Virus record (IMG/VR): IMGVR_UViG_3300048589_000381
Location: 1-30,477 of that record
Source: a virus
DNA length: 30,477 bases
Strand: one strand, 5' to 3'
Below the pieces are notes generated by a model, which saw only the letters and a program-made list of their open reading frames with translations, made no database searches and was not told the DNA's origin. Shown piece by piece: positions 10,222 through 30,477 of the stretch. The translations under genes were made by a program, and so were the position numbers. Positions within the stretch are counted from its first letter, which is position 1; each line of letters opens with the position of its first letter.

Positions 10222-12396
10222 ATGAAACAAACATCAGATTATCAGAGATTTTTAAAAACGAAAGAAAAAACATTTATTTCAAGTGGTTTCATAGTTGATG
10301 AAGAAAAGCTAAATCCAATGCTTTTCCCTTTTCAGAAATATTGTGTAAAGGTTGCACTTGAAAAAGGAAGGTTTGCACTTTTTGAAGATTGCGGACTTGG
10401 AAAAACAGCTCAGCAACTTGAATGGGCGCATCAGGTTTATTTGCATACTGGAATGAAAGTTTTAATACTTGCACCTTTAGCAGTAGTTGAACAAACCAAA
10501 AGAGAGGCTAAAAAGTTTAATATTCCAAGTGAATGTTTTGATATTACAAACTTCGATCAATTGAAAAATATTGATTGCTCAGTTTATTCAGGAATTGTTT
10601 TGGATGAATCAAGTATCTTAAAAGGAAAAGACGGAAAACTTTCATCATTGATTATTGAAACCTTTAAAAATACACCGTACAAGTTAGCATGTACAGCAAC
10701 ACCATCACCAAATGATCACATGGAATTGGGCCAACACGTTGAATTTTTAGGTTTTGATAGTTATGAAAATATGAAATCAATGTTTTTTATTCAAGATCAA
10801 AAAATAAAAAGCAATGATAAATGGAGGTTAAGAAAACACGCTGAAGATGATTTTTGGAAATACGTTTGCACTTGGAGTATGTCAATTGATAATCCTTCAA
10901 CTTTGGGTTTTGATGGTGAAGGCTTTAATCTTCCTGAAATTGAATTTGTAGAACATATAATTCCAGTTGAAAACAAAAGCGGAAATCTATTCAATGACGT
11001 TGCAGTTAGTGCAACTGATTTGCACAAAGATTTGAAACGTTCATTTGATAAAAGGATTCAAAAAACAATTGAATTAGTGAACAGTTCTGATGAACAATGG
11101 TTGATTTGGACATTAAAAAATGATGAAGCTGATGCACTTTCAAGAGCAATTAAAAATTCAGTAAATGTTCAGGGTTCAAACAATGCAGATTATAAATCAA
11201 AAAATCTAAATGGTTTTGCAGATAACGAATTTCAAAATCTTATAACAAAAACTTCAATTGCTTCATTTGGGATGAACTTTCAAAATTGCAGCAATATGAT
11301 ATTCACGTCCTATGATTTTAAATTTGAACAATTTTATCAGGGTGTTAGGCGATCATATCGCTTCGGACAAAAAAACAAAGTTACAGTTCATTTATTGGTT
11401 CCTGAAACACAAAAAAATGTGAGGCAATCAATATTGGAAAAAGAAAGAAAACACAAATTAATGATTTCAGAAATGGCAAAATACTCAGCAAATACAGATT
11501 ATAAAAAAAATGAATCTGCAATAAATAAAAACTTCCGTGAATTTAAAAGTGAAAACTTTTGGTTAATGGAAGGCGATTGTGTAGATAGGACAAAGGAAAT
11601 TGAAGATGAAAGCGTTGATTATTCATTTTTTAGTCCACCGTTTAAAGATTTATATACTTATTCTGATGATCCGAGAGATTTATCAAACGTAACAAATGAT
11701 GATGATTTTTACAAACACTTCAGGTTTTTAGTCCCTGAACTTTTTAGAGTTTTAAAACCTGGAAGATTATTATCAATGCATATAATGCAGGGAACAACAT
11801 CAATTGGAAAAGATGGTTTTCTTTCAATTATTGATTTTAGAGGTGAACTAATACGTTTGTTTCAGGAATATGGTTTTATATTCCACGCTGAAAAGATGAT
11901 TCGTAAAAACCCACAATTGGCAGCAGTAAGGACAAAAAACATTCAATTGATGCACGGCCAAACAAAAAGAGATAGTTCAATCAATAGGCCTGGATTGGCT
12001 GATTATGTTATTACATTTAGAAAGCCAGGCCAAAACATTGTTCCAATTCAAAATGATATTGATTTTGATCTTTGGTGTAAATTAGCTGAGCCGGTTTGGA
12101 TGGATATAAATGAAAGTGATGTTATTTCAAACTTCAGAAAAGCAAAAGGAAAAAATGATGAAAAACACATGACACCAACGCAGTTAAGTGTTATCAGAAA
12201 TTGTTATTTGCTATGGAGTAATCCTGGTGATGTTTGTTTCAGTCCGTTTGGTGGTGTTGGCAGTGAGGGTTGCCAGGCTATAAAAATGGATAGAAAAAGC
12301 ATAAATATAGAACTGAAGGAAAGTTATTTTGATATGAATTATTCAAATCACAAAGCATTTGAAGAAAATAAAAACTCAGTTCTTACTTTGTTTTAA
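10222..12396 (+). CDS. Fused SNF2/DEAD-type helicase and DNA methyltransferase
   Basis: 724 residues in two parts. Residues about 30-430 are a superfamily 2 helicase: DCGLGKT (56-62, Walker A), IVLDESS (125-131, DExx box), TATPSP (158-163, motif III), and a C-terminal helicase lobe with QGVRRSYRFGQKN (motif VI). Residues about 450-724 are an amino-methyltransferase: SPPF (471-474, catalytic motif IV), then PFGGVGSEG near 675-683 (AdoMet-binding motif I). The order IV then I is that of beta-class N4-cytosine/N6-adenine enzymes. The likely role is to translocate on and modify phage DNA against host restriction. It heads the operon behind module 2. Confidence 0.8.
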   Translation: MKQTSDYQRFLKTKEKTFISSGFIVDEEKLNPMLFPFQKYCVKVALEKGRFALFEDCGLGKTAQQLEWAHQVYLHTGMKVLILAPLAVVEQTKREAKKFNIPSECFDITNFDQLKNIDCSVYSGIVLDESSILKGKDGKLSSLIIETFKNTPYKLACTATPSPNDHMELGQHVEFLGFDSYENMKSMFFIQDQKIKSNDKWRLRKHAEDDFWKYVCTWSMSIDNPSTLGFDGEGFNLPEIEFVEHIIPVENKSGNLFNDVAVSATDLHKDLKRSFDKRIQKTIELVNSSDEQWLIWTLKNDEADALSRAIKNSVNVQGSNNADYKSKNLNGFADNEFQNLITKTSIASFGMNFQNCSNMIFTSYDFKFEQFYQGVRRSYRFGQKNKVTVHLLVPETQKNVRQSILEKERKHKLMISEMAKYSANTDYKKNESAINKNFREFKSENFWLMEGDCVDRTKEIEDESVDYSFFSPPFKDLYTYSDDPRDLSNVTNDDDFYKHFRFLVPELFRVLKPGRLLSMHIMQGTTSIGKDGFLSIIDFRGELIRLFQEYGFIFHAEKMIRKNPQLAAVRTKNIQLMHGQTKRDSSINRPGLADYVITFRKPGQNIVPIQNDIDFDLWCKLAEPVWMDINESDVISNFRKAKGKNDEKHMTPTQLSVIRNCYLLWSNPGDVCFSPFGGVGSEGCQAIKMDRKSINIELKESYFDMNYSNHKAFEENKNSVLTLF

Positions 12397-15452: not shown

Positions 15453-15881
15453 ATGGAAGTAAAGCCAAAAAAATGTGCCAACGTTGATTGTGATAATGTT
15501 TTTACACCGAAATACAGAACAACTGAAAGAACATGTTGTTATGCTTGTGAAAAGGCATATCAGGACAGTAAACCGCAAAAGGAACAAAAGCATTATAAAA
15601 TTCCAAGAGTTTCAAAAAAACGTTCTAAAGAAGAAAAAATTTACACAGCTCGAAGGATTGTATTTCTTTCAAAGCCTGAAAACAAACTTTGCAGGATCAA
15701 TGGCACAAATTGCACTTCATTAGCAACCACAATTGAACATTCAGCCGGAAGAGGCATCAACTATCTAAATGAAGAAACCTGGAAACCTGCCTGTTCAAAT
15801 TGCAATATTGAACTGGAAAACAATTCAGAACTTTCAAAGGAACATCAGGTTAGTAAAATTCATGGAGGAAAAAAGATTTGA
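15453..15881 (+). CDS. NinG/HNH-like zinc-finger nuclease
   Basis: 142 residues. An N-terminal zinc-finger-like set CANVDCDNVF and CCYACEKAY gives clustered cysteines (about 8-32). The C-terminal part has ATTIEHSAGRGINYL, then WKPACSNCNIELENNSE with the C-x2-C and following N of an HNH/NinG fold, and HxxGGK at the end. Lambda NinG acts in Red/RecF recombination, and HNH members cut DNA. The position directly before SSB and after recombination genes supports a recombination role. Whether it is catalytic cannot be seen. Confidence 0.6.
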   Translation: MEVKPKKCANVDCDNVFTPKYRTTERTCCYACEKAYQDSKPQKEQKHYKIPRVSKKRSKEEKIYTARRIVFLSKPENKLCRINGTNCTSLATTIEHSAGRGINYLNEETWKPACSNCNIELENNSELSKEHQVSKIHGGKKI

Positions 15882-20446: not shown

Positions 20447-20983
20447 ATGAAAACTGATGAAATGTATGAACTGTATAAAAAGGGATACAGTTTAGCTGAT
20501 ATTGCAAATGTTTGCTCACTAAGTCGTCAATCTGTTTATTCTCGTTTTAAGAATAAAAAATTAAAGTTGCGTTCAAAAAAGAAAAAACCATTCATAATTA
20601 TAGATGGGTTGAGATTCACAATAAATAGAGATGGTTATTATGAATGTACGACAATTGACAGGTTAATGCTTCACAACTATAATTGGGAGAAAATAAATGG
20701 TAAAATTCCAAATGGATATGAATTACATCATAAAGACTTGAATAAAATAAACAATGAAGTTTCAAATTTACAGCTTGTAACCCCAAAACAACATACAGAG
20801 ATTCATTCAAAAATTAGAAATGGTAGTGGAATGAACAAAAAAGTAAAATGTATTGAAACAGGCGAAATATTTGATAGTATAGTTCAGGTAGCAAAAAAAC
20901 ACAATCAGTATTCATCAAACGTATCAAGATATTATATTGATGGAAAAAGAAAATTAGATGGATTTACTTATGAGAAAATATAA
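20447..20983 (+). CDS. HNH homing endonuclease with helix-turn-helix and NUMOD1-like domains
   Basis: 178 residues. Residues 8-35 (YKKGYSLADIANVCSLSRQS) form a helix-turn-helix. The HNH core ELHHKDLNKINNEVSNLQLV (92-111), with H94/H95, N107 and H116/H120, is clear. The C-terminal 45 residues (KCIETGEIFDSIVQVAKKHN and on to DGFTYEKI) match the NUMOD1 DNA-binding module. Such enzymes cut DNA near their own insertion point and spread selfishly. The gene ends 26 bases inside the next gene, the methyltransferase, which is its likely target region. Confidence 0.8.
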   Translation: MKTDEMYELYKKGYSLADIANVCSLSRQSVYSRFKNKKLKLRSKKKKPFIIIDGLRFTINRDGYYECTTIDRLMLHNYNWEKINGKIPNGYELHHKDLNKINNEVSNLQLVTPKQHTEIHSKIRNGSGMNKKVKCIETGEIFDSIVQVAKKHNQYSSNVSRYYIDGKRKLDGFTYEKI

Positions 20984-22991
20984 TATTGGTTCAGATTGTT
21001 CGGGTGTGGGTGCATTTTTGCAGTCATTAAATAGATTGGGTATTGACTATGAAGAAAAATTTTCAACAGATTTTGATTATTATGCAAGGTTGACATATTT
21101 GCTTAATTATGGAACTGAAGAAGATATTGAACTTGGAAATTCAAAAGAACATAAAATATTTGCGGATGGAGTTAAACAAATAGCACTATCTGAAAAAGAA
21201 CCAACGGATGAAGAAATAGCATTTTTAAACGATGCTAACGAATTTTCAAAAAAGTTTTCCTTTTATTATCCATTCAATATGTACCAAAGGGAAATACCTT
21301 CAAATCCATTGGATATTTATATTGGAAGTTTCCCATGTCAAAGTTTTAGTTTATCAGGAAAAAGAAAAGGGGAAGAAGATAAAAGGGGGATTCTTTTTTA
21401 TAATGGACACGAATTTATTAATAAAAATAAGCCAAAAATATTCATATTAGAAAATGTGAAAGGCTTATTGAGTGATGATGGTGGCAAAACCTTTCAAAGA
21501 TGGTTGGATTTTCTTGGTGGAAAATCAGTAAATGGAAACCCGGTTATTTTTCCACATCCTGAAAGCGTTCCATATCATATTTATCATCAGGGTTTAAATG
21601 CAAAGGATTATGGAGTTCCACAAAATCGGGAACGCATTTTTATAATTGGGATCCGTGATGATTCAGATAATACCTTTTCATTTCCAAAACCTTTTCATTT
21701 GAAAAAAAGATTGAAAGATGTTATTGATTTGGAAGTTGATAAAAAATATCACCTCAGCGAAAAAATGATTAATTATCTTTTTAGCCGTGCCGGAAACTTC
21801 AACAATGGAAAAATAAATTTTAAAGGTGAAGATGATATTGCATCATCAATAACTGCATCCAGTAAATCATTGGATATTTCTGATAATATATTAAAAGTTG
21901 GGAATGTACATCCAAGCGGAAACGGAATGAATGGAAATGTTTTTTCTGTTGAAGGAATTTCTCCATCATTAACAACTAATAAAGGTGAAGGATTAAAAAT
22001 ACAAATTGCCGCGAATCGCGGCAGAAACCCACAAAACCCAAAATCACGTGAAACAGGAAAAGAAACCGTTCAAATGTTGGAAGTAAATGAAAACGATGTT
22101 TCAAATGCACTTACAACAGTGCAAAAAGATAATGTTGTTTTGATCCGTAATGTTCATGGCGGTTTTGGTGAAAGTGAACCAAGTGTTGTTCAAATGAATC
22201 CATCAAAGGAAAGTGGAGGGCAACAACCGTATAAACAACACCGTATTTTTCATGGTGATGGTTTATCACCTGCATTAGATACTGAATGTGGAAGGCCAAA
22301 CTATTTGTTTAACTATAACAAAAACATTATCTTTAATGGGATAAATATTAAGTATAATGAACAAAAAAGCATTAGCGAAACATTGTGGTTACTGCAAGAA
22401 GAAATTGGAAAGAAGGAAATTGAATCGTGGGGATTACGAATCTTGGAAACAATTCGAGAAAAAGAAATATTGCAATCGGGAATGCATGAAAAAAGCATTC
22501 AAGGAAAAACCAAAAAAACAACAAAAGGATTTATCAGTAAGATACAGCAGAGTAAAGGCACAAAAGAAAATGCCTTTATCATTATGCGAAGTTTGTCAAA
22601 AGAAAAATGGGAAAGATGTTCACCATATAGACGAAAATCCATTAAACAATGCGTTAGAAAACTTAATGAGAGTTTGCAGAAGTTGCCATCTGAAAATTCA
22701 CAGGCCAAAATCAATTTGCAAAGTGGAAAGTTTCAGTATAGAAATGAAGGGGTTAGGATATTGCAACAAGCATTATATACGATTCAAGAAATATGGAAAT
22801 CCAATGATAACGAAATATCCAACTCGTATATAATAAGAAGGCTTACAGTACGTGAATGTTTCAGATTGATGGATTTTCCTGAAACGTTTGACATTTCAAA
22901 AGTAAGCGATTCTCAAGGTTACAAACAGGCAGGAAATTCAATTGTTGTTGCGGTGTTGGCTGCATTAATAGAAAAACTACCTTTAAAATAA
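20958..22991 (+). CDS. DNA (cytosine-5)-methyltransferase interrupted by an in-frame 525-base insertion
   Basis: 677 residues as read. Motif I is IGSDCSGVGAF; motif IV FPCQSFSLSG with catalytic C127; motif VI ENVKG; motif VIII QNRERIFIIGI; motif IX RRLTVRECFRLMDFP starts at residue 627; motif X QGYKQAGNSIVVAV. The region from N452 to I626 (22311-22835) looks alien: it is basic, without m5C pattern, and lies opposite the HNH gene at 22357-22833 in another frame. Removing it would join GRPNYLF to RRLTVREC as in normal enzymes. The insertion lies between target-recognition region and motif IX. It probably protects phage DNA. Alternative start: ATG 20970. Confidence 0.8.
   Translation: MDLLMRKYNIGSDCSGVGAFLQSLNRLGIDYEEKFSTDFDYYARLTYLLNYGTEEDIELGNSKEHKIFADGVKQIALSEKEPTDEEIAFLNDANEFSKKFSFYYPFNMYQREIPSNPLDIYIGSFPCQSFSLSGKRKGEEDKRGILFYNGHEFINKNKPKIFILENVKGLLSDDGGKTFQRWLDFLGGKSVNGNPVIFPHPESVPYHIYHQGLNAKDYGVPQNRERIFIIGIRDDSDNTFSFPKPFHLKKRLKDVIDLEVDKKYHLSEKMINYLFSRAGNFNNGKINFKGEDDIASSITASSKSLDISDNILKVGNVHPSGNGMNGNVFSVEGISPSLTTNKGEGLKIQIAANRGRNPQNPKSRETGKETVQMLEVNENDVSNALTTVQKDNVVLIRNVHGGFGESEPSVVQMNPSKESGGQQPYKQHRIFHGDGLSPALDTECGRPNYLFNYNKNIIFNGINIKYNEQKSISETLWLLQEEIGKKEIESWGLRILETIREKEILQSGMHEKSIQGKTKKTTKGFISKIQQSKGTKENAFIIMRSLSKEKWERCSPYRRKSIKQCVRKLNESLQKLPSENSQAKINLQSGKFQYRNEGVRILQQALYTIQEIWKSNDNEISNSYIIRRLTVRECFRLMDFPETFDISKVSDSQGYKQAGNSIVVAVLAALIEKLPLK
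22304..22335 (+). promoter_or_regulatory. Possible promoter for the nested HNH gene
   Basis: TTTG at 22304-22307 and TATCTTTA at 22328-22335, separated by 20 bases, lie just before ATG 22357. The fit to TTTG-N20-TAnnTTTG is good. It would let the nested HNH gene be transcribed on its own. It overlaps the last codons of the intact methyltransferase part. Confidence 0.4.
22357..22833 (+). CDS. HNH endonuclease nested out of frame inside the cytosine methyltransferase gene
   Basis: 158 residues in a frame different from the host gene. The N-terminal Cys pairs (C10/C13, C39/C43) suggest one zinc site. The HNH core LCEVCQKKNGKDVHHIDENP (76-95) is followed by LNNALENLMRVCRSCHLKIH (96-115), with C77/C80 and C107/C110 binding zinc and H89/H90, N98 and H115 in catalytic positions. 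A tail NKHYIRFKKYGNP follows. The stop TAA (22831-22833) falls one codon before the conserved methyltransferase motif IX. There is no room for a group I intron, so it appears to be a free gene inserted directly in coding DNA. Confidence 0.8.
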   Translation: MNKKALAKHCGYCKKKLERRKLNRGDYESWKQFEKKKYCNRECMKKAFKEKPKKQQKDLSVRYSRVKAQKKMPLSLCEVCQKKNGKDVHHIDENPLNNALENLMRVCRSCHLKIHRPKSICKVESFSIEMKGLGYCNKHYIRFKKYGNPMITKYPTRI

Positions 22992-23259: not shown

Positions 23260-23340
23260 AAACCTCAGCACCATGAAAAAAATGTAAAAAATTAATTTGA
23301 TTCATAATTAAATTAAAATTTGTTTAGTTAGTTAAAATGA

Positions 23341-23371
23341 AAAACCCTTCAGTAATCTGAGGGGTTTTTTT
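23341..23371 (+). terminator. Strong intrinsic terminator
   Basis: A 12-bp stem AAAACCCTTCAG (23341-23352) with CTGAGGGGTTTT (23357-23368), one G.T pair, loop TAAT, followed by a T run. It has the same build as the terminator at 3944-3974. Confidence 0.8.
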
Positions 23372-23410
23372 ATTTGAACCGTAAATATTTAAAATATTTT
23401 CAATAAAAGT

Positions 23411-23464
23411 ATTGTTATTACAAAAATAGGTTGTATATTCGTACCAACAAACAAAACAAACGAT
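23411..23464 (+). promoter_or_regulatory. Promoter and AAACAAACGAT leader for the small-gene block
   Basis: ATTG (23411-23414) and TATATTCG (23434-23441) at 19-base spacing, then the leader AAACAAACGAT at 23454-23464, directly before ATG 23466. It lacks a good copy of the palindromic operator (only 8 of 14 positions fit), so control probably differs from the four modules. Confidence 0.55.
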
Positions 23465-23465
23465 T

Positions 23466-23786
23466 ATGAAAACTACAATAACAAACGCAGAATTCGATTT
23501 ATTTTTAAACTCTTGTGAAATTTCCTTTAATGCAGAGCAATACGGCCATTCATCAACTGATTATGATATGAAAGGTTATATGAATGATTCTGAAGGTGAA
23601 AGAATTGCAACAATTGATTTTGTAAAGGGAACAACTGAAGTTGAAAAAGAAATCTACATTGATGATGAAACCTGTTTTTCACCATCAGTTATCCAAGAGG
23701 CAAAAATATTGGATGCCATTGATAAAGGAACTTCAATTGATCGTGAAAGATGGGTTGATGAATTTTTGAACCAAGAAACCTGCTAA
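23466..23786 (+). CDS. Hypothetical protein (106 aa), first gene of the small-gene block
   Basis: A soluble acidic protein: MKTTITNAEFDLFLNSCEIS, then beta-rich GERIATIDFVKGTTEVEKEI, and a helical end. The leader motif and promoter immediately upstream show it is the first gene of a transcript. No family is recognised; first small genes of phage accessory operons often act against the host, which is only an inference. Confidence 0.65.
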   Translation: MKTTITNAEFDLFLNSCEISFNAEQYGHSSTDYDMKGYMNDSEGERIATIDFVKGTTEVEKEIYIDDETCFSPSVIQEAKILDAIDKGTSIDRERWVDEFLNQETC

Positions 23787-23788
23787 TT

Positions 23789-23980
23789 ATGCGACACGTT
23801 GCCACAATTACAGTTTATTCCTTTGGGGATGATGATAAAACATCATTCCAACAGGCTCAAAAGATGGTTGAAATGTTGAATAAAAATTTTGATGGTTGCA
23901 ATGCAAATGTTGAAGGATTTGCAAAACAGGAATTTGGAACTATTGGTTCAACAGCACTGGAAATTGACAATTTGAAATAA
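23789..23980 (+). CDS. Small hypothetical protein (63 aa)
   Basis: 63 residues starting two bases after the previous stop. A ferredoxin-like alternation of strand and helix is suggested (HVATITVYSFGDDDKTSFQQ, then AQKMVEMLNKNF). It is followed by a perfect hairpin (23987-24014), so it ends this transcript or part of it. No function is recognised. Confidence 0.55.
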   Translation: MRHVATITVYSFGDDDKTSFQQAQKMVEMLNKNFDGCNANVEGFAKQEFGTIGSTALEIDNLK

Positions 23981-23986
23981 CACGGA

Positions 23987-24014
23987 AATAAAACCAGTTT
24001 AAATTGGTTTTATT
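23987..24014. terminator. Symmetric hairpin, probable two-way terminator
   Basis: AATAAAACCA (23987-23996) pairs with TGGTTTTATT (24005-24014), 10 bp perfect, with the inner bases also pairable. The T-rich right arm and following T-rich DNA fit a terminator; the A-rich left arm would serve the other strand. The gap to 24067 also has a small GGGAA/TTCCC hairpin (24039-24053). Confidence 0.6.
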
Positions 24015-24067
24015 GGATGTTATTTATTTTTAATAATCGGGAACCTACTTCCCAAAAAATTAATATT

Positions 24068-24196
24068 ATGGAATTCCCCAAATCAAAAGAAGAGTTGGAA
24101 AACTCTATTAATGAAAATGGCTATAATCAATTATTAAATGATGCCATTGCTGCAACTGAATATGAACACTTTTATAAACAATTTCAAATAAAATAA
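24068..24196 (+). CDS. Small acidic hypothetical protein (42 aa)
   Basis: ATG 24068 to TAA 24196, beginning MEFPKSKEELENSINENGYN. It is predicted helical. It ends four bases before the next start and has the A-rich upstream context of its neighbours. The function is unknown. Confidence 0.5.
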   Translation: MEFPKSKEELENSINENGYNQLLNDAIAATEYEHFYKQFQIK

Positions 24197-24200
24197 ACCT

Positions 24201-24491
24201 ATGTACTGGAGTTACAACAAAAAAACAAAGAAACCAGGATTTCACACTTCTAAAAAAAAGATTTCTGATTTCACTGGAATCAAATATGATAAAATTTCCT
24301 ATGAATTGGGAGTTAAGGAACAAAGCGAAATGGAAACGGATGATTTCTATGTTTCAAAATGTTCATCTGTTGAAGATGCAATGCTGAAATATTCAGAAAA
24401 AGCAAATCCAGTTGAAGAAAAAACATTGATAGGATCATTGGATATTTCAGGCAACAAAACAAATTTTTTCCTTCAAACAGTAAAAGAATAA
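24201..24491 (+). CDS. Hypothetical protein (96 aa)
   Basis: 96 residues, basic N-terminus (YWSYNKKTKKPGFHTSKKKI) and acidic C-terminal half. The N-terminal aromatic/Lys mix suggests nucleic-acid or protein binding, but nothing more can be read. It sits in the densely packed small-gene block. Confidence 0.55.
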   Translation: MYWSYNKKTKKPGFHTSKKKISDFTGIKYDKISYELGVKEQSEMETDDFYVSKCSSVEDAMLKYSEKANPVEEKTLIGSLDISGNKTNFFLQTVKE

Positions 24492-24493
24492 CT

Positions 24494-24631
24494 ATGTGTT
24501 CAGGAAACTATAAACCGGAATTTGAAAGAAAAATTAAAAACAAAGCAATAATGAATTTTCAAATAACTTTGTTGATAATTAATATTTTGATTTTTTCAAT
24601 AAATATTTACCTAACTTATTTTAAAAAATAA
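24494..24631 (+). CDS. Small single-span membrane protein (45 aa)
   Basis: ATG 24494 to TAA 24631. It has a charged N-terminus (MCSGNYKPEFERKIKNKAIM), then one hydrophobic segment of about 22 residues, and a short basic tail. It is too short for an enzyme. The function is unknown; small single-span phage proteins often modify the host envelope. Confidence 0.5.
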   Translation: MCSGNYKPEFERKIKNKAIMNFQITLLIINILIFSINIYLTYFKK

Positions 24632-24635
24632 AGCT

Positions 24636-24911
24636 ATGCATCCAACAAAATTTGATGGTTATAATACTGAGCTGACAAAGCCAAAACAAATGACTGATGA
24701 ACAATGTGGTTCAATGTTCGTTTTCCGTGATGGCATCCAGTGCATTTCATCTTGGAAAGTTCCATTTTTGGAACGTTTAAAGATTCTTTTATTTGGCCGT
24801 GTTTGGGTTGGGGTTATAAATGGTAGAACACAACCACCGATTTATTTAACACCTGATAAACCGGAAATGAAAAACGGTTTGCACATCATAAAAAATAAAG
24901 ATGATGAATGA
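24636..24911 (+). CDS. Small phage protein with a 'WKVPFLERLKILLFGRVWVG' pattern
   Basis: 91 residues. The core ISSWKVPFLERLKILLFGRV followed by GVINGRTQPPIYL is a pattern I know from many phages of different hosts, where it is annotated only as hypothetical. The aromatic helical segment may lie on a membrane. It overlaps the next gene by 11 bases. Confidence 0.6.
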   Translation: MHPTKFDGYNTELTKPKQMTDEQCGSMFVFRDGIQCISSWKVPFLERLKILLFGRVWVGVINGRTQPPIYLTPDKPEMKNGLHIIKNKDDE

Positions 24912-25218
24912 TGTTCAATCAAAAAAACAAGCTATTGAAAAGGCAGTTGATGAAATGAAATTGATTGCGCTTCAGTTGAAATGGTGTAAAAAACATTTTG
25001 ATATTTGGTTTCCACTTGCAATGAAACTATCATCAAAAGCACTTGAAATTGCAATGATTAAATCACAGCCAATTTTTCCCAAAGGTGGAGTTGTGGATCA
25101 CAGAAACGGAATCATTTATTGTGGTTCCGATTTTGGAAAAGGTAAATCACAATCTGTTGAATATTTCATTGATGCTAATGGCAAAACAATTCAATTAAAT
25201 CCACCTAACAAATTTTAA
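24901..25218 (+). CDS. Hypothetical protein (105 aa)
   Basis: 105 residues from ATG 24901 (or the next ATG, 24904). The N-terminal half is helical and Lys-rich; the C-terminal half is beta-rich (GGVVDHRNGIIYCGSDFGKG). Single Cys residues and no metal motif. The function is unknown. Confidence 0.6.
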   Translation: MMNDVQSKKQAIEKAVDEMKLIALQLKWCKKHFDIWFPLAMKLSSKALEIAMIKSQPIFPKGGVVDHRNGIIYCGSDFGKGKSQSVEYFIDANGKTIQLNPPNKF

Positions 25219-25221
25219 AAG

Positions 25222-25500
25222 ATGGCTATTAAAAGCAAAAAAAATAAACATCAAAAAAAGGTAAAAACTAAAAAGTTCGTTCCGCAATGCAAACCGGATC
25301 CAATAAAATTATATTTCAGGAAAAACACCTGGAAAGATATTGTTGTGAGGCCTTCAGATTTCAATGATGGTGCCGTTGTAATGATAAATGAAAGAAATGA
25401 AGTTTTGGCAATCACAACTGAAGTTGCACAATACTTTGTTGATAATCCCAAAAATTTTTATGAAATTAATTTTCACCTAAAACACCCAAAAGATGAATAA
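25222..25500 (+). CDS. Hypothetical basic protein (92 aa)
   Basis: Starts three bases after the previous stop. The first 35 residues are extremely basic (KSKKNKHQKKVKTKKF), followed by a small sheet-like domain (VVMINERNEVLAITTEVAQY). Binding to nucleic acid is plausible. Overlaps the next gene by eight bases. Confidence 0.55.
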   Translation: MAIKSKKNKHQKKVKTKKFVPQCKPDPIKLYFRKNTWKDIVVRPSDFNDGAVVMINERNEVLAITTEVAQYFVDNPKNFYEINFHLKHPKDE

Positions 25501-25711
25501 TCACATTTTAACAATCGTAGCAATCAATATAATTGGATTTGTATTGGTTTTCATTTTCCAACTTTACAAAAGGATTTTCCAGTTGAAGAAATTCGCATTT
25601 GTGGATTACTTTGTTTCATTTGTCATTTTGACACTTGGAAGTTTTCTATTTATAGCCGTTTTAAACCCTCTTATTTTTTGGGTTGTGAAAATCCTTCAGA
25701 AATTTATGTAA
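25493..25711 (+). CDS. Small membrane protein with two spans (72 aa)
   Basis: 72 residues, mostly hydrophobic. Spans about 5-23 and 36-56 (ILTIVAINIIGFVLVFIFQL; FVSFVILTLGSFLFIAVLNP), with basic residues between them. No known family. The A of its TAA is the first base of the next gene's ATG. It could be an envelope-acting accessory protein. Confidence 0.55.
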   Translation: MNNHILTIVAINIIGFVLVFIFQLYKRIFQLKKFAFVDYFVSFVILTLGSFLFIAVLNPLIFWVVKILQKFM

Positions 25712-25911
25712 TGGATCAAGGCGCAAAGCAAACGACAAACACCGCATTGAATAGGCGTTATTATCTTCATCAGATAATAAAAAATGTAGGTTTCAAATAT
25801 GATCCCTACAAAAGAACGGTTTTTGTGAACGGTGCGTATAACAAAAACAACCGTTACATCAATGAACTTCAGAAAAATTATAATTATAGCGTTCAATTTG
25901 AAATTAAATAA
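25711..25911 (+). CDS. Small hypothetical protein (66 aa)
   Basis: The start is taken at ATG 25711, which overlaps the preceding stop by one base; an upstream ATG at 25678 would give a longer overlap. A basic protein with aromatic residues (ALNRRYYLHQIIKNVGFKYD, then RTVFVNGAYNKNNRYINELQ). The function is unknown. Confidence 0.5.
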   Translation: MDQGAKQTTNTALNRRYYLHQIIKNVGFKYDPYKRTVFVNGAYNKNNRYINELQKNYNYSVQFEIK

Positions 25912-25923
25912 TAATTAAACTAT

Positions 25924-26190
25924 ATGAAAGTATTCAAAATTTATTCAGAAGATTACTATTACGCTTATTCATCGGAAACAGAAGAAGAAGCCGTAAAACT
26001 ATTTATTGAAGAACAAGGCGATTTGTTCATTGATAAGATAGAGGAAATACCCGAATCGCAATGGGACGAAAAAATAATCAATGTTTGGGAGGACAACGAT
26101 TTTGATACTGAACCGTGGAAAGTTTCAATAAGGGAAGAAATTTCAGAAACCCCCAGCCTACTATTCACTAATGATTTTTCAAACTTTTAA
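25924..26190 (+). CDS. Acidic hypothetical protein (88 aa), possible acquired gene
   Basis: 88 residues with very high Glu/Asp content (YYAYSSETEEEAVKLFIEEQ and onward), predicted to be alpha/beta. Its codon use (ATA, CCC, TCG, GAC) is unlike the GAT/CCA/GCA-rich neighbours, which hints at recent acquisition. Small highly acidic phage proteins are sometimes DNA mimics that block host nucleases, but this is only a possibility. Confidence 0.5.
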   Translation: MKVFKIYSEDYYYAYSSETEEEAVKLFIEEQGDLFIDKIEEIPESQWDEKIINVWEDNDFDTEPWKVSIREEISETPSLLFTNDFSNF

Positions 26191-26209
26191 CACTTAAATA
26201 TTTTTTAAA

Positions 26210-26476
26210 ATGGCAAAACAAAAAAAGAATGTTCGATCTTCCAGGACCGGAAGATTTGTAAATCAAGAAATGGCAGAAACGAACCCAAATGAAACCGTTA
26301 CCGAAACAGTAAGGGAACCATTGCAGGAACTTGTTGAAGCGGTTGAATCAGCAACTAACGTTCAAACAATTTCCTATCATTCAAACACAAAGAAATGGGA
26401 AATCATTTTTAAGAACGATTTGGAAACCAATACAGTTGAAACAAGGAATCTTATTGAATTTCTTGAAAACGTTTAA
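26210..26476 (+). CDS. Hypothetical protein (88 aa)
   Basis: 88 residues: a basic, disordered start (MAKQKKNVRSSRTGRFVNQE), a Thr/Glu-rich linker, a short helix (LQELVEAVESA), then a strand-rich end (WEIIFKNDLETNTVETRNLI). It is the last gene before module 4 of the shared promoter. The function is unknown. Confidence 0.55.
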   Translation: MAKQKKNVRSSRTGRFVNQEMAETNPNETVTETVREPLQELVEAVESATNVQTISYHSNTKKWEIIFKNDLETNTVETRNLIEFLENV

Positions 26477-26483
26477 AAACAAA

Positions 26484-26557
26484 ATATAAAGGTTTTTGTT
26501 ATTTCATTTGGATTTAATAAAAACCTTTATTATTTTTACAATCACAAACAAACGATA
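26484..26557 (+). promoter_or_regulatory. Promoter with tandem palindromic operators and leader (module 4 of 4)
   Basis: Upstream half ATATAAAGGTTTTTGTTA (26484-26501, 11 of 14 arm positions); downstream half TAATAAAAACCTTTATTA (26515-26532, perfect), centres 31 bp apart. -33 TTTG (26507-26510) is 20 bases from -7 TATTTTTA (26531-26538). The leader CAAACAAACGATA is at 26545-26557, shortly before ATG 26563. Confidence 0.65.
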
Positions 26558-26562
26558 CTACA

Positions 26563-26949
26563 ATGAAAAATCTTCAAAAACATGATTTTGTTACTTGTGT
26601 AGCAAAGCACGGAAACAGCACAGCAAAACTAAAAATTGGCACTTCATATCGGGTTGTTCACATAAAAAAATACACCCTTGGCGAAAACCCAAAAACAAGG
26701 GAATTCACAATTCTTGATGATAGAGGAATGAAAAGGGTTTATCTAACATCAACAAAAATGTTTGAACGTACAGATGGCACCGATTTATTCAATGATTCAC
26801 ATTTCAACATCATGCGACTTTTCGCAAATGAAATTGAAAATCTAACAATGTGTTCACTTCAGGCTGATATTTCTGAAGATGATATTGAAAAGGATAAAAG
26901 CGCCAAAATAAAAGAATATTTAATTAAGTTGATGAAGGTAAAAAAATAG
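26563..26949 (+). CDS. Hypothetical protein (128 aa), expressed from a module promoter
   Basis: 128 residues. The N-terminal 70 are beta-rich and may form a small SH3-like barrel (HDFVTCVAKHGNSTAKLKIG, then FTILDDRGMKRVYL); the C-terminal half is helical, with a DISEDDIEKDK linker. Behind the shared regulated promoter it is predicted to be co-expressed with the genes at 4056, 10222 and 16676. The function is unknown. Confidence 0.65.
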   Translation: MKNLQKHDFVTCVAKHGNSTAKLKIGTSYRVVHIKKYTLGENPKTREFTILDDRGMKRVYLTSTKMFERTDGTDLFNDSHFNIMRLFANEIENLTMCSLQADISEDDIEKDKSAKIKEYLIKLMKVKK

Positions 26950-26952
26950 ATT

Positions 26953-27120
26953 ATGAAAAATAAATCAAAACTTTCAGATTGTATTGCAGGTGGATTTTTA
27001 GGAATTGGATTTGCAATGGGTTTTTTCCCAATACTGATTGCATCATTAATAATTCAGCACAATCTTTTTCTTGAAATGATTGAAAGAATGGATTCATTTT
27101 GGAAGGAACGGCAAATTTAA
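26953..27120 (+). CDS. Small membrane protein with one glycine-rich span (55 aa)
   Basis: ATG 26953 to TAA 27120. One long hydrophobic region (about 11-37) with a glycine motif GGFLGIGFAMGFFP, then a charged tail. The glycine spacing would allow helix packing within the membrane. The function is unknown. Confidence 0.5.
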   Translation: MKNKSKLSDCIAGGFLGIGFAMGFFPILIASLIIQHNLFLEMIERMDSFWKERQI

Positions 27121-27124
27121 AATT

Positions 27125-27406
27125 ATGGGTTTAAAAGTTTTCAGTGAATGTTGCCAAAACTGCCTTTTATCAAAAAACAGAATTGTAAGTTCTGAAAGAG
27201 CAAAGGAAATCATAAAAACCTGCAAAGAAAAACAGCAATATTTCATTTGCCACAAAGCCAGTATTAAAAATGAAGATATTGTTTGCAGTAAATTCTTTAA
27301 AGATTTTGGGGGTTTCAGCCAAATGATAAGAATTGCCGAAAGATTGAACGCAGTTGAATTTGTTCCACAAACCGACAATGAAAAATTGCCACCTTTTAAA
27401 AAATAA
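27125..27406 (+). CDS. Cysteine-rich protein, possible zinc or Fe-S binder
   Basis: The start is taken at ATG 27125, four bases after the previous stop (93 residues). Cysteines appear as ECCQNCLLSKNRIVSS, then KTCKEKQQYFICHK, then EDIVCSKFF, that is C-C-x2-C followed by separated C, C and C-x positions, with a helical linker. The ICHK step and the general spacing resemble a group of phage Cys-rich proteins. A metal site of zinc or Fe-S type is likely, but the role is unknown. Confidence 0.55.
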   Translation: MGLKVFSECCQNCLLSKNRIVSSERAKEIIKTCKEKQQYFICHKASIKNEDIVCSKFFKDFGGFSQMIRIAERLNAVEFVPQTDNEKLPPFKK

Positions 27407-27415
27407 TTATATTTG
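27386..27415 (+). promoter_or_regulatory. Promoter (TTG-N19-TATATTTG) directly ahead of a terminator
   Basis: -33 TTG (27386-27388) and -7 TATATTTG (27408-27415), 19 bases apart, near the end of the Cys-rich gene. The next feature downstream is a terminator at 27452, so the product would be a short RNA of about 65-70 bases. Confidence 0.45.
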
Positions 27416-27451
27416 AAATCGTATTTCATTTATTTTCAATTTGCGTTGAAC

Positions 27452-27488
27452 AAAAATCCCTTCAGTGTAAAAACCAAAGGGATTTTTT
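27452..27488 (+). terminator. Intrinsic terminator
   Basis: AAAAATCCCTT (27452-27462) with AAGGGATTTTT (27477-27487), 11 bp perfect, loop of 14, and a T run. It ends the small-gene block and any short RNA from 27422. Confidence 0.75.
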
Positions 27489-27500
27489 AATTTAAAAAAC

Positions 27501-27508
27501 TATATTTG
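27501..27508 (+). promoter_or_regulatory. Promoter -7 box TATATTTG
   Basis: A perfect -7 box just after the terminator and 20 bases before the small gene at 27529. There is no clear -33 TTTG. The likely start is near 27515. Confidence 0.4.
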
Positions 27509-27528
27509 AAAAACAAAAACTTTCAAAA

Positions 27529-27639
27529 ATGATAACTTACAGCATTTGCCCAATAGTGGGAATGAAATTTTACTTTGATCCAGTTCCAATTGTAAACAGG
27601 CAGCAAAGAATAAAATCAAAGCTCAGAAAATCAAAATGA
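27529..27639 (+). CDS. Small hypothetical protein (36 aa)
   Basis: ATG 27529 to TGA 27639; begins MITYSICPIVGMKFYFDPVP and ends with a Lys/Arg-rich tail. It follows a promoter box and precedes a small ATCAGG/CCTGAT hairpin (about 27658-27677). Its size makes it uncertain. Confidence 0.35.
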   Translation: MITYSICPIVGMKFYFDPVPIVNRQQRIKSKLRKSK

Positions 27640-27697
27640 AATAATTACTTTTGATGCATCAGGGGTAAAAGCCTGATAAAATTCAAAACAATTTATT

Positions 27698-27955
27698 ATG
27701 CGTTCAATTAGAGCAAAATTTCAATGCACAACTGTAATTCCACCAACACAAGATTATGATGCAGTTGCTTATTTAAGTGCCGTTTATGCAAATGATGATG
27801 GAACCGTTAACGAAGAAAACCAAAGTTTTTCCAGTGCAACACCATCAGGACAAATCACCATTTCAATTTCAAAGGATGTTCCGGCAAGTAAGTTTTTTAA
27901 ACCTGGAAGAAGTTACTATTTGGATTTTACAAAAATCCCAATTGAAAAAAAATGA
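27698..27955 (+). CDS. Hypothetical phage protein (85 aa)
   Basis: 85 residues: FQCTTVIPPTQDYDAVAYLS, then FSSATPSGQITISISKDVPA, then FFKPGRSYYLDFTKIPIEKK. The pattern 'AKF-C-T-V ... SATPSG ... FKPG-x-YYLDF' is familiar from small phage proteins of several hosts, all hypothetical. It sits upstream of the packaging genes and may be a minor structural or regulatory protein. Confidence 0.6.
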   Translation: MRSIRAKFQCTTVIPPTQDYDAVAYLSAVYANDDGTVNEENQSFSSATPSGQITISISKDVPASKFFKPGRSYYLDFTKIPIEKK

Positions 27956-27973
27956 TGATATGAAATAAATCAT

Positions 27974-28056
27974 TATATTTGATTTGTCATAATACATCAA
28001 AGTTCAAACTTTAAAACACCACCAAAGGAAACAACAATTCCAGGTGGTGTTTTTCA
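27974..28056 (+). terminator. -7 box followed by a strong terminator
   Basis: TATATTTG at 27974-27981 (no good -33 box), then AAAACACCACC (28013-28023) pairing with GGTGGTGTTTT (28043-28053), 11 bp perfect, and a T run. This ends the transcript from 27698, and possibly a short RNA of about 65 bases. Confidence 0.7.
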
Positions 28057-28075
28057 TTTATAAAAAATCAGTAAG

Positions 28076-28104
28076 TTTGTATTAAAGAAACTAATATACT
28101 TTTG
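28076..28104 (+). promoter_or_regulatory. Promoter for the packaging operon
   Basis: TTTG (28076-28079) and TACTTTTG (28097-28104), 17 bases apart, a good Bacteroidota promoter 48 bases before the small terminase ATG at 28152. Without the operator palindromes, it is likely controlled separately from the four modules, as expected of a late promoter. Confidence 0.55.
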
Positions 28105-28151
28105 CAGGTTTCAAATCAGAAAACTCAAAAGGATAAAAAGGACAATACACA

Positions 28152-28721
28152 ATGAAAGAATCAACACTGAAAAAACATCAATCCGTAATTGATGAATATG
28201 TAATTAACGGTTTTAACGGAACAAAGGCATATCAAAAAATATATCCAAAAGTAAACGATAATACAGCCGGCGTAAAGTTCAATGCATTGGTAAGGAATGG
28301 TAAGATTCAGGAATATCTTAAACACAAACAGAAAAAAGCATCAGAATTTGCCACTGTAACGCACCAGGAACTGTTGGCTGAGCTTAAAAGATGGGCGTAT
28401 AGTGATACTACCGAATTCATAAATCTAACACCTGAGGACGTTAAAAAGATGCCAATTGAATTAAGGCGTTTGGTTCAGGGTTTTACAATTACATCCACAA
28501 CAACCGGAACCGGAAAAGATGCCGTTACTACTCAAATGGTGAAACTTTCATTTGTGAACAAAAAACAGGCATCAGAAATGATTGCAAAACACATTGGTTT
28601 CTTTGGTGAACACAATTATCAAAAGGCCATTCCTATTTCAGATCTTTCACCACAGGAACGCAGGGCCAAAATCAAAGAATATCAGGAAAAGATTGATAAA
28701 ACCTTAAACAAAACCCAATGA
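28152..28721 (+). CDS. terS: Terminase small subunit
   Basis: 189 residues. The N-terminal DNA-binding helix-turn-helix (FNGTKAYQKIYPKVNDNTAG, then ALVRNGKIQEYL) with the 'A-x-x-A-x-x-KI-x-x-YL' pattern matches Terminase_2 small subunits. The middle holds the AELKRWAYSDTTEFI stretch common to the family and the C-terminus is a charged helix. It selects phage DNA for packaging and recruits the large subunit, whose gene follows after one small ORF. Length is normal for the family. Confidence 0.85.
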   Translation: MKESTLKKHQSVIDEYVINGFNGTKAYQKIYPKVNDNTAGVKFNALVRNGKIQEYLKHKQKKASEFATVTHQELLAELKRWAYSDTTEFINLTPEDVKKMPIELRRLVQGFTITSTTTGTGKDAVTTQMVKLSFVNKKQASEMIAKHIGFFGEHNYQKAIPISDLSPQERRAKIKEYQEKIDKTLNKTQ

Positions 28722-28915
28722 CAATCAACAATGAATTTGAAATTGGGCAAACTGTATATTTGAAAACAGATCCAAACCAGTACCAAAGGATGGTGGTTCA
28801 AATCGTTATCAGGGCAAAGGATATTCTTTATGATATTGTTTGCGCTGAATCACTTTATACGGCACATTCTTTTGAACTTTCATCAGAAAAGGATCAATTA
28901 ATGATTTGCCAATGA
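28718..28915 (+). CDS. Small protein between terminase subunits (65 aa)
   Basis: 65 residues, overlapping TerS by four bases and TerL by four bases (ATGA). Predicted beta-rich (EIGQTVYLKTDPNQYQRMVV, then IVCAESLYTAHSFE). The tight overlaps suggest coordinated translation with the terminase; its role is unknown. Confidence 0.6.
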   Translation: MTINNEFEIGQTVYLKTDPNQYQRMVVQIVIRAKDILYDIVCAESLYTAHSFELSSEKDQLMICQ

Positions 28916-30477
28916 TAGCATCAGATGAAATCAGTGATCAGGAACTGAAGGAACTGGAAGAGCTTTTGCGACTGGAGGAAATTGATATGCTTTATGATGG
29001 CCTGATCAATCCAGGACCTGATGCAAATCCAAACTTCAAATATTTAAAGCAGTGTTTCCAGGATCAGAAATGGAACGCCAATGATGAACTGATTGCAGGG
29101 AAAAAAGGCGTTGCATTGGAAGGTTCAACAAGAAGTGGAAAAACCTGGTCCGGTGTTGATTTCATTATTTGGTTATGCACAAGAGTTGAAACAAATTGTA
29201 AAATCAATATTTATAGGGCGACATTTGCAGAATTCAAAGATACTTTATATGAAGATTTCAGAAGGCGCTTGGATGATTTTGGAATTCCAAACAAATTTGA
29301 AAATGCTGAGGTTGTAAAATCGTTTCGCATTGGTGGAAATGTGATCAGTTTTAAGGGATGTGATAAACTTGGAAAAAATCACGGTGCCGGTGCTGATTAT
29401 GTATTTTTTAATGAAATCATGCATATTCCGGAAGGGATATTTAATCACGCAGCAATACGATGCAGAAAATTTTGGTGGGCAGATTACAATCCATCATTCA
29501 GTTCACATTGGTTTTTTGATCGTGTTGTTGGCAGGAAAGATGTTGGTTTTCTTCGTACTACTTTCCAGGATAATCCATTTATTTCACCAAACGAAAAGAA
29601 GGAAATCACCATCAAAGAACCCTGGCAAACTGGTTCCTATTATGTAACACCTGAGGGTGAATTGATGTATAATGGATCACCTATTGATTCAAACAATCAA
29701 CCACCGCCAAACCTGGATAATTTGGAAACCGCTGATGAATATTTTTGGAGGGTTTACGGTTTGGGATTACGTGGTTCAATGGAAGGCGTTATTATTGATA
29801 GGATCCATTGGATTGATGAATTTCCTGAAGATATGGGATATTTTTATGGCAATGATTTTGGTTTTTCTGTTGATCCTAATGCACTGGTTCGATATGCTGA
29901 AGATGAAAACAATATTTATTTTGAACTGTTGTGTTATAATCCTGTTGAAACTGATGATGCACTGGATGAACTTTATACGGAACTTGGAATTGAAAAGGCA
30001 CTGCCAATAATTTGTGATTCATCAGATCGTTTTGTTTCTGAGCATAAAGGGGTGATTGAAATGGTGAAAGGCCTCAGGAAAAAGAACTGGAGGGCAAAGA
30101 AGGTGAAGAAAACAAAATCAGTGATGTATTGGTTAACATCAATGAAAAAGAAGAAACTTCATTGTGTTAAGAACCATTTATGGCAAAAGGTAAAAACTGA
30201 ACAGGAAAACTATAAATTCAAAAAGGTTGCCGGAATTCAAATAAATCAGCCTGAGGATAAATACAATCACTGTTTTTCTGCTGATACTATGGTTTTGACA
30301 ACTAAAGGAAATAAAATGATAGTTGATGTTGTGGTGGGGGATATTATTATTAATTCATTTGGTGAACATAAAGTAATAAATTCATTCCTAAGTCGCAAAG
30401 ATGCTGAAACAAACGACTATAAAATATCTTGTGGCATTGGTAACTATTATGTATCTTCAACAAGCGAACACAAAGTT
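28912..30477 (+). CDS. terL: Terminase large subunit, incomplete, with intein insertion
   Basis: 522 residues visible; the gene continues past the window. ATPase domain: Walker A GSTRSGKT (71-78), Walker B-like YVFFNE (163-168, catalytic E168). The nuclease domain begins at YGNDFGF (D315 metal ligand) and has a second acidic site IICDSSD (D369). At residue 454 the terminase pattern EDKYNH breaks and an intein starts (Cys454). In intact relatives EDKYNH is followed directly by an Asp of the third nuclease motif ('H-x2-DA-x-RY'). The start ATG 28912 overlaps the preceding stop. The motor packages DNA into capsids. Confidence 0.9.
   Translation, partial: MIASDEISDQELKELEELLRLEEIDMLYDGLINPGPDANPNFKYLKQCFQDQKWNANDELIAGKKGVALEGSTRSGKTWSGVDFIIWLCTRVETNCKINIYRATFAEFKDTLYEDFRRRLDDFGIPNKFENAEVVKSFRIGGNVISFKGCDKLGKNHGAGADYVFFNEIMHIPEGIFNHAAIRCRKFWWADYNPSFSSHWFFDRVVGRKDVGFLRTTFQDNPFISPNEKKEITIKEPWQTGSYYVTPEGELMYNGSPIDSNNQPPPNLDNLETADEYFWRVYGLGLRGSMEGVIIDRIHWIDEFPEDMGYFYGNDFGFSVDPNALVRYAEDENNIYFELLCYNPVETDDALDELYTELGIEKALPIICDSSDRFVSEHKGVIEMVKGLRKKNWRAKKVKKTKSVMYWLTSMKKKKLHCVKNHLWQKVKTEQENYKFKKVAGIQINQPEDKYNHCFSADTMVLTTKGNKMIVDVVVGDIIINSFGEHKVINSFLSRKDAETNDYKISCGIGNYYVSSTSEHKV
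30271..30477 (+). other. Intein N-terminal part inside TerL
   Basis: From Cys454 the protein reads CFSADTMVLTTKGNK, then IVDVVVGDIIINS: intein block A, with the nucleophilic Cys and the conserved 'GD'. About 55 residues later SSTSEHKV supplies block B with the T-x2-H motif (T, then H). The remaining blocks, any homing endonuclease and the C-terminal splice junction lie beyond the window. If functional, it splices itself out to restore EDKYNH joined to the downstream extein. Confidence 0.85.

Follow-up and report, generated by a model that had tools for sequence, protein, structure and literature searches.

A predicted splicing intein in a phage large terminase gene that probably shares its DNA with an out-of-frame HNH endonuclease gene

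The stretch of viral DNA analysed here, hereafter the window, comprises 30,477 bases and is the entire IMG/VR record IMGVR_UViG_3300048589_000381. The frame at 28912–30477 encodes the large terminase subunit (TerL) and is open to the final base of the window (Table 1). Its N-extein matches the Pfam families Terminase_6N (E = 1.2e-9) and Terminase_3 (E = 7e-6) and the PHROGs family phrog_2, terminase large subunit (E = 5.9e-24). About 70 relatives of this TerL were found; those named after a host are mostly from Bacteroides and Flavobacterium phages, and the nearest are from Cellulophaga phages. With a slash marking the junction, the frame reads ...INQPEDKYNH/CFSADTMVLTTKG...GNYYVSSTSEHKV, and at the intein entry ...QPEDKYNH/CFSADTMVLTTKGNK...GNYYVSSTSEHKV. 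The first-pass annotation had proposed an intein at this position from its blocks A and B, and both blocks lie exactly where it placed them.

Table 1. Features of the window and of contig L004, which supplies the continuation of the intein.
Feature	Sequence	Position	Strand	Size	Remark
N-extein, terminase large subunit up to QPEDKYNH	window	28912..30270	+		covers the ATPase domain and the greater part of the nuclease domain
Intein residues 1–69, N-terminal part of the splicing domain	window	30271..30477	+		cut by the window end
Block A, CFSADTMVLTTKG	window	30271..30309	+		Cys1 at 30271–30273
Block B, GNYYVSSTSEHKV	window	30439..30477	+		T-x-x-H (TSEH) at 30460–30471
Complete intein	L004	6984–7904		307 residues	
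Out-of-frame HNH gene	L004	7205–7849		214 codons	starts 15 bases past the window end
Second out-of-frame HNH ORF	window	22357–22833	+	158 aa	nested in the C5 DNA methyltransferase ORF 20958–22991, just before the RRLTVRECFRLMDFP motif
HNH-type ORF	window	20447–20983	+		overlaps the start of the methyltransferase ORF
HNH-type ORF	window	15453–15881	+		

Because the window is the whole record, the next 1.5 kb is not in it. The C-terminal half of the intein was taken from L004, a contig of another sample that is 99.986% identical to window positions 23288–30477 over 7,190 bases. The TerL ORF of L004 (5619–8003, 794 aa) is open through the insert. The C-terminal junction sought there was found as ...LANEILVHN/CFDAVRY, in short form HN/CFDAVRYCHIEFNRP, and the insert ends as VYDLTIEDKHEFLANEILVHN/CFDAVRYCHIEF. 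The expected residues C1, T64/H67, N307 and Cys+1 are all present in L004. Across 40 aligned inteins C1, H67 and N307 are invariant, and the Thr of block B is at least 90% conserved. The insertion point lies directly before the Asp of D-x-x-R-Y, which is kept by all TerL relatives compared and which we take to be the last metal-binding acid of the nuclease; the L004 junction thus bears out the proposed position of the intein, directly ahead of the final conserved Asp in the nuclease motif.

The complete L004 insert matches the Pfam family Intein_splicing (PF14890) with an E value of 8.4e-11, above the gathering score. In an AlphaFold2 model built from the alignment of 40 sequences, residues 1–90 and 268–307 adopt a Hint fold at pLDDT 92–97, and the middle of the insert is of low confidence (block means 32–74). 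A Foldseek search with this model gave the gp41-1 intein as the top solved-structure match (E = 6.5e-7, TM 0.80 on target), and the top sequence-profile match is likewise the gp41-1 intein. A second copy of the intein, 91.5% identical to that of L004, is present in contig L072, and two TerL genes (L002 and L003), 98–99% identical, are without the insert and read EDKYNHCFDAVRY and EDKFNHCFDAVRY. The copy in L072 and the insert-free state of the same gene in L002 and L003 exclude a chance insert. The empty site also occurs in 67 further TerL relatives. Sequence and model together confirm that the insert in this phage TerL is an intein with a Hint fold, predicted to splice, and DNA packaging by the terminase can soundly be expected to depend on protein splicing.

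The intein-free L002 and L003 share a sample record with the intein-bearing L072. The window itself ends at 30477 inside the intein, though the near-identical L004 continues. Assembly could have broken at this position if alleles with and without the intein coexist in one population.

In the intein frame, no endonuclease was seen between the splicing halves. An HNH gene lies there in another reading frame, so that the homing endonuclease considered in the first-pass annotation is present between the blocks, as a separate gene and not as an intein domain. The intein frame is offset by plus one base from the HNH frame. Along the whole HNH gene neither of the two is interrupted by a stop, and the third frame has 29 stops over the HNH domain. 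The ATG of the HNH gene arises within Gly-Trp codons of the intein and its TGA within the Tyr-Asp codons of VYDL. The encoded protein matches HNH_3 (PF13392, E = 3e-17) and, weakly, further treble-clef families, and its model has a pLDDT of 90.7. The His and Asn of the HNH motif and the treble-clef Cys are invariant. A search of the HNH profile against the PDB gave no sequence match, and the fold match of the model to I-HmuI is weak (E = 0.06). Gene tables can be misleading at such loci: those of the records examined give either the long terminase or the HNH, never both.

Elsewhere in the window there are three HNH-type ORFs, rather than the two that had been counted for this phage. One of them likewise lies out of frame inside another gene, here a methyltransferase ORF whose frame has 0 stops through the HNH, compared with 17 in the third frame. 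This HNH is absent from 14 of 14 methyltransferase relatives, and only the identical contig L176 has it. By eye, another ORF on the plus strand (10222–12396, 724 residues) consists of a helicase-like part joined to a DNA-methylase-like part.

The nested layout is not confined to L004 and L072. A first HNH scan found it in six other contigs of two divergent lineages; among named phages it occurs in Tetrasphaera phage TJE1, Acinetobacter phage Highwayman and Rhodobacteraceae phage LS06-2018-MD07. Automatic classification of a profile scan gave 65 nested loci (one offset, zero stops), 14 split inteins and 21 HNHs without an intein. Two further scans used new queries, with genes seen before removed and, in the second round, copies of the same HNH sequence dropped. 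Together with two Bacteroidales loci from a narrower genome scan, both nested, they added 69 nested loci at +1, one at another offset, four split inteins and 12 HNHs without an intein. The totals are 134 nested loci at one frame offset, one at the other and 18 split inteins; the counts take in related contigs, the classification profiles had a training set of 11 members, of which eight are nested, and a single HNH family seeded the search, so that only its inteins are counted. Where the junctions were read, the flanks fit TerL at the same motif or a few codons away.

The split inteins have the HNH between their halves in TerL genes (L083, L094, L095, L105, L107, L109, L115, L116, L118, L137, L142, L146, L148, L158, L284, L288, L307 and L339), which include those of Lactobacillus phage CL2, Vibrio phage 1.238.A and Brochothrix phage BL3. 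These 18 loci are candidates for new natural split inteins. Many of the intein-free HNHs follow immediately 3′ of a terL that is intact and has no intein. The sole nested intein at HNH +2 instead of +1, the frame usually richest in stops, is at L306 2495–3076.

We compared the open intein frames with a permutation in which synonymous codons were shuffled within each HNH, keeping the protein and the codon usage. By permutation, 7.7 of 65 and 9.0 of 69 frames would be open, and all 134 were observed to be so. HNHs without a complete intein had about as many stops as expected (5.3 observed vs. 5.6 and 6.1 vs. 5.9), as did the split-intein HNHs (6.8 vs. 6.7). In L306, no stop interrupts the +2 frame, whereas 2,000 permutations gave 7.2 on average and never fewer than 2. 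These results show that stops are selected against in the intein frame of the nested set, for which a chance open frame is ruled out by the synonymous permutation and the non-intein controls. The window's own HNH copy alone would be open by permutation with a chance of 8%, or 0.5% with TerL codon usage; the evidence for a selected open frame comes from the whole set, and this single-copy test is weak. A frameshifted pseudogene is ruled out because both frames are open in 135 of 135 nested loci. In pairs of relatives, the shares of substitutions at HNH codon positions 1:2:3 are.29:.23:.48 for nested HNHs and.29:.24:.47 for free-standing ones, an equal pattern. Selection thus keeps the linker open, with no detectable conservation of its protein sequence. 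A protein function of the overprinted linker thus finds no support in its free-standing-like substitutions and low-confidence fold.

The nested starts carry a strong Shine-Dalgarno match in 46% of 59 and 38% of 68 loci, compared with 8% for the control, same-frame ATGs in the upstream part of terL of the same loci (p = 3.6e-7 and 1.4e-7). This enrichment favours internal initiation. The start codon is in place in 68 of the 69 nested loci of the later scans. The window's own clade has no Shine-Dalgarno site at the nested start, a point in favour of frameshifting there; Bacteroidota generally do not depend on such sites. In L004, seven A followed by four G (ATA AAA AAA GGG) lie just past the HNH start codon, and this run would move a ribosome into the HNH frame. 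Ribosomes translating the terminase frame might thus enter the HNH by a −1 frameshift and produce a fusion of TerL-N, intein-N and HNH. However, judged from translations, the run is not preserved in the relatives L075–L079, and the Shine-Dalgarno enrichment and start codons at nested loci elsewhere also speak against frameshifting, which we consider unlikely. As a general mechanism, programmed frameshifting was set aside because only the window and its own partner contig share the A7G4 run, and a Shine-Dalgarno site and a start codon are present in many relatives.

Two other readings concern the nature of the insert itself. If the intein were decaying, the HNH would formerly have been in frame, paired indels would have displaced it, and the intein frame would be open only as a leftover. 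Overlaps of frames are often accidental, and the offset of 134 of the 135 nested loci is inherently poorer in stops (0–12, vs. up to 46 in the other frame). However, no in-frame HNH–intein fusion occurs among the 153 intein-associated HNHs of all scans, catalytic residues are conserved in both the intein and the HNH, and the open frames persist above expectation over deep divergence, which makes decay very unlikely. Group I introns of phages often carry HNH genes, and the insert could accordingly be read as an RNA-level intron with an HNH gene. This is the least probable of the alternatives, given the Pfam Intein_splicing match, the confident Hint fold and the residues conserved at both ends, and given that no Rfam match at the gathering score was obtained in ten nested loci. 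A group I or group II intron was rejected on the absence of a ribozyme core by Rfam in these 10 loci.

From sequence comparison and modelling, we consider it highly probable that one stretch of DNA in TerL encodes both a splicing mini-intein and an HNH that is translated independently. In this reading a mobile mini-intein, predicted to splice, lies directly before the last conserved nuclease Asp, and an HNH_3/treble-clef endonuclease gene occupies the usual endonuclease site between its splicing halves in the other frame, making the DNA double-coding. The terminase frame would yield a precursor of TerL-N, intein-N, a linker of about 177 residues without conserved sequence, intein-C and TerL-C, and splicing of this precursor would give active terminase. 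From the internal start codon in the other frame, a free HNH endonuclease would be translated separately; it would be expected to cut intein-less terminase genes and in this way to promote copying of the insert.

In a tree of 92 HNHs, the nested, split and free-standing states are intermingled. The starred branches imply at least five changes for the nested and at least three for the split state, on a topology with unsettled bootstrap and long branches. The tree supports repeated passage between the three states and does not give its direction. The double-coded layout may be a stage toward naturally split inteins. It is conceivable, at a little under an even chance, that the TerL inteins of this group represent a widespread third kind of mobile intein with an overlapping, out-of-frame endonuclease gene, that the HNH family passes between three states, and that the nested state is the missing step from continuous to split inteins. 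These observations address how a parasitic endonuclease gene joins a splicing domain and how split inteins originate. One HNH family is found free-standing beside terL, overprinted in an intact intein and between split halves, in one codon neighbourhood of one gene, which makes the evolutionary steps directly testable. The overprinted state also suggests that the splicing domain tolerates about 180 arbitrary residues at the endonuclease site, which would be useful in intein engineering.

Inteins with an in-frame HNH domain, an HNH-type mobility enzyme at the usual endonuclease site, exist; in these the intein protein itself contains the HNH as a domain, whereas here it is a separate overlapping gene. 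The ShiLan domain is an out-of-frame HNH hidden in a phage DNA methylase (Arsenault, Gosselin and Gogarten 2025, PMC11855218). It shares with the present system the nested HNH, a host-gene frame open through the insertion, a patchy distribution and an unexplained expression of the HNH. It differs in having no splicing domain and is thought to be retained in the protein, whereas here the insertion is an intein with a Hint fold in TerL, and Shine-Dalgarno sites precede many of the nested starts. The methyltransferase-nested HNH of the window shows no obvious splicing motifs and is similar to the ShiLan domain (PMC11855218). A full-text literature search of incomplete coverage found no out-of-frame endonuclease inside a true intein; bioRxiv 10.1101/2025.01.02.630785, which PMC11855218 cites on overlapping frames in actinobacteriophages, may overlap with our observations if it covers endonuclease frames within inteins of those phages. 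The naturally split inteins of fractured genes of the gp41-1 type (Dassa et al. 2009, as cited in PMC6801210) likewise have an endonuclease gene between two intein halves, and gp41-1 is the top solved match of our model. Compared with that type as cited there, the halves here are joined by an open frame (L004 and L072), and 18 relatives have a broken one. Because the halves are joined through the endonuclease gene, splicing should be in cis. The mycobacteriophage TerL inteins (Kelley et al. 2016, PMC5050341) also have the large terminase subunit as host protein, and in that study splicing was shown for five and cleavage of empty sites for two; they lie in its ATPase domain, whereas the intein described here interrupts the nuclease domain, at its last acidic position.
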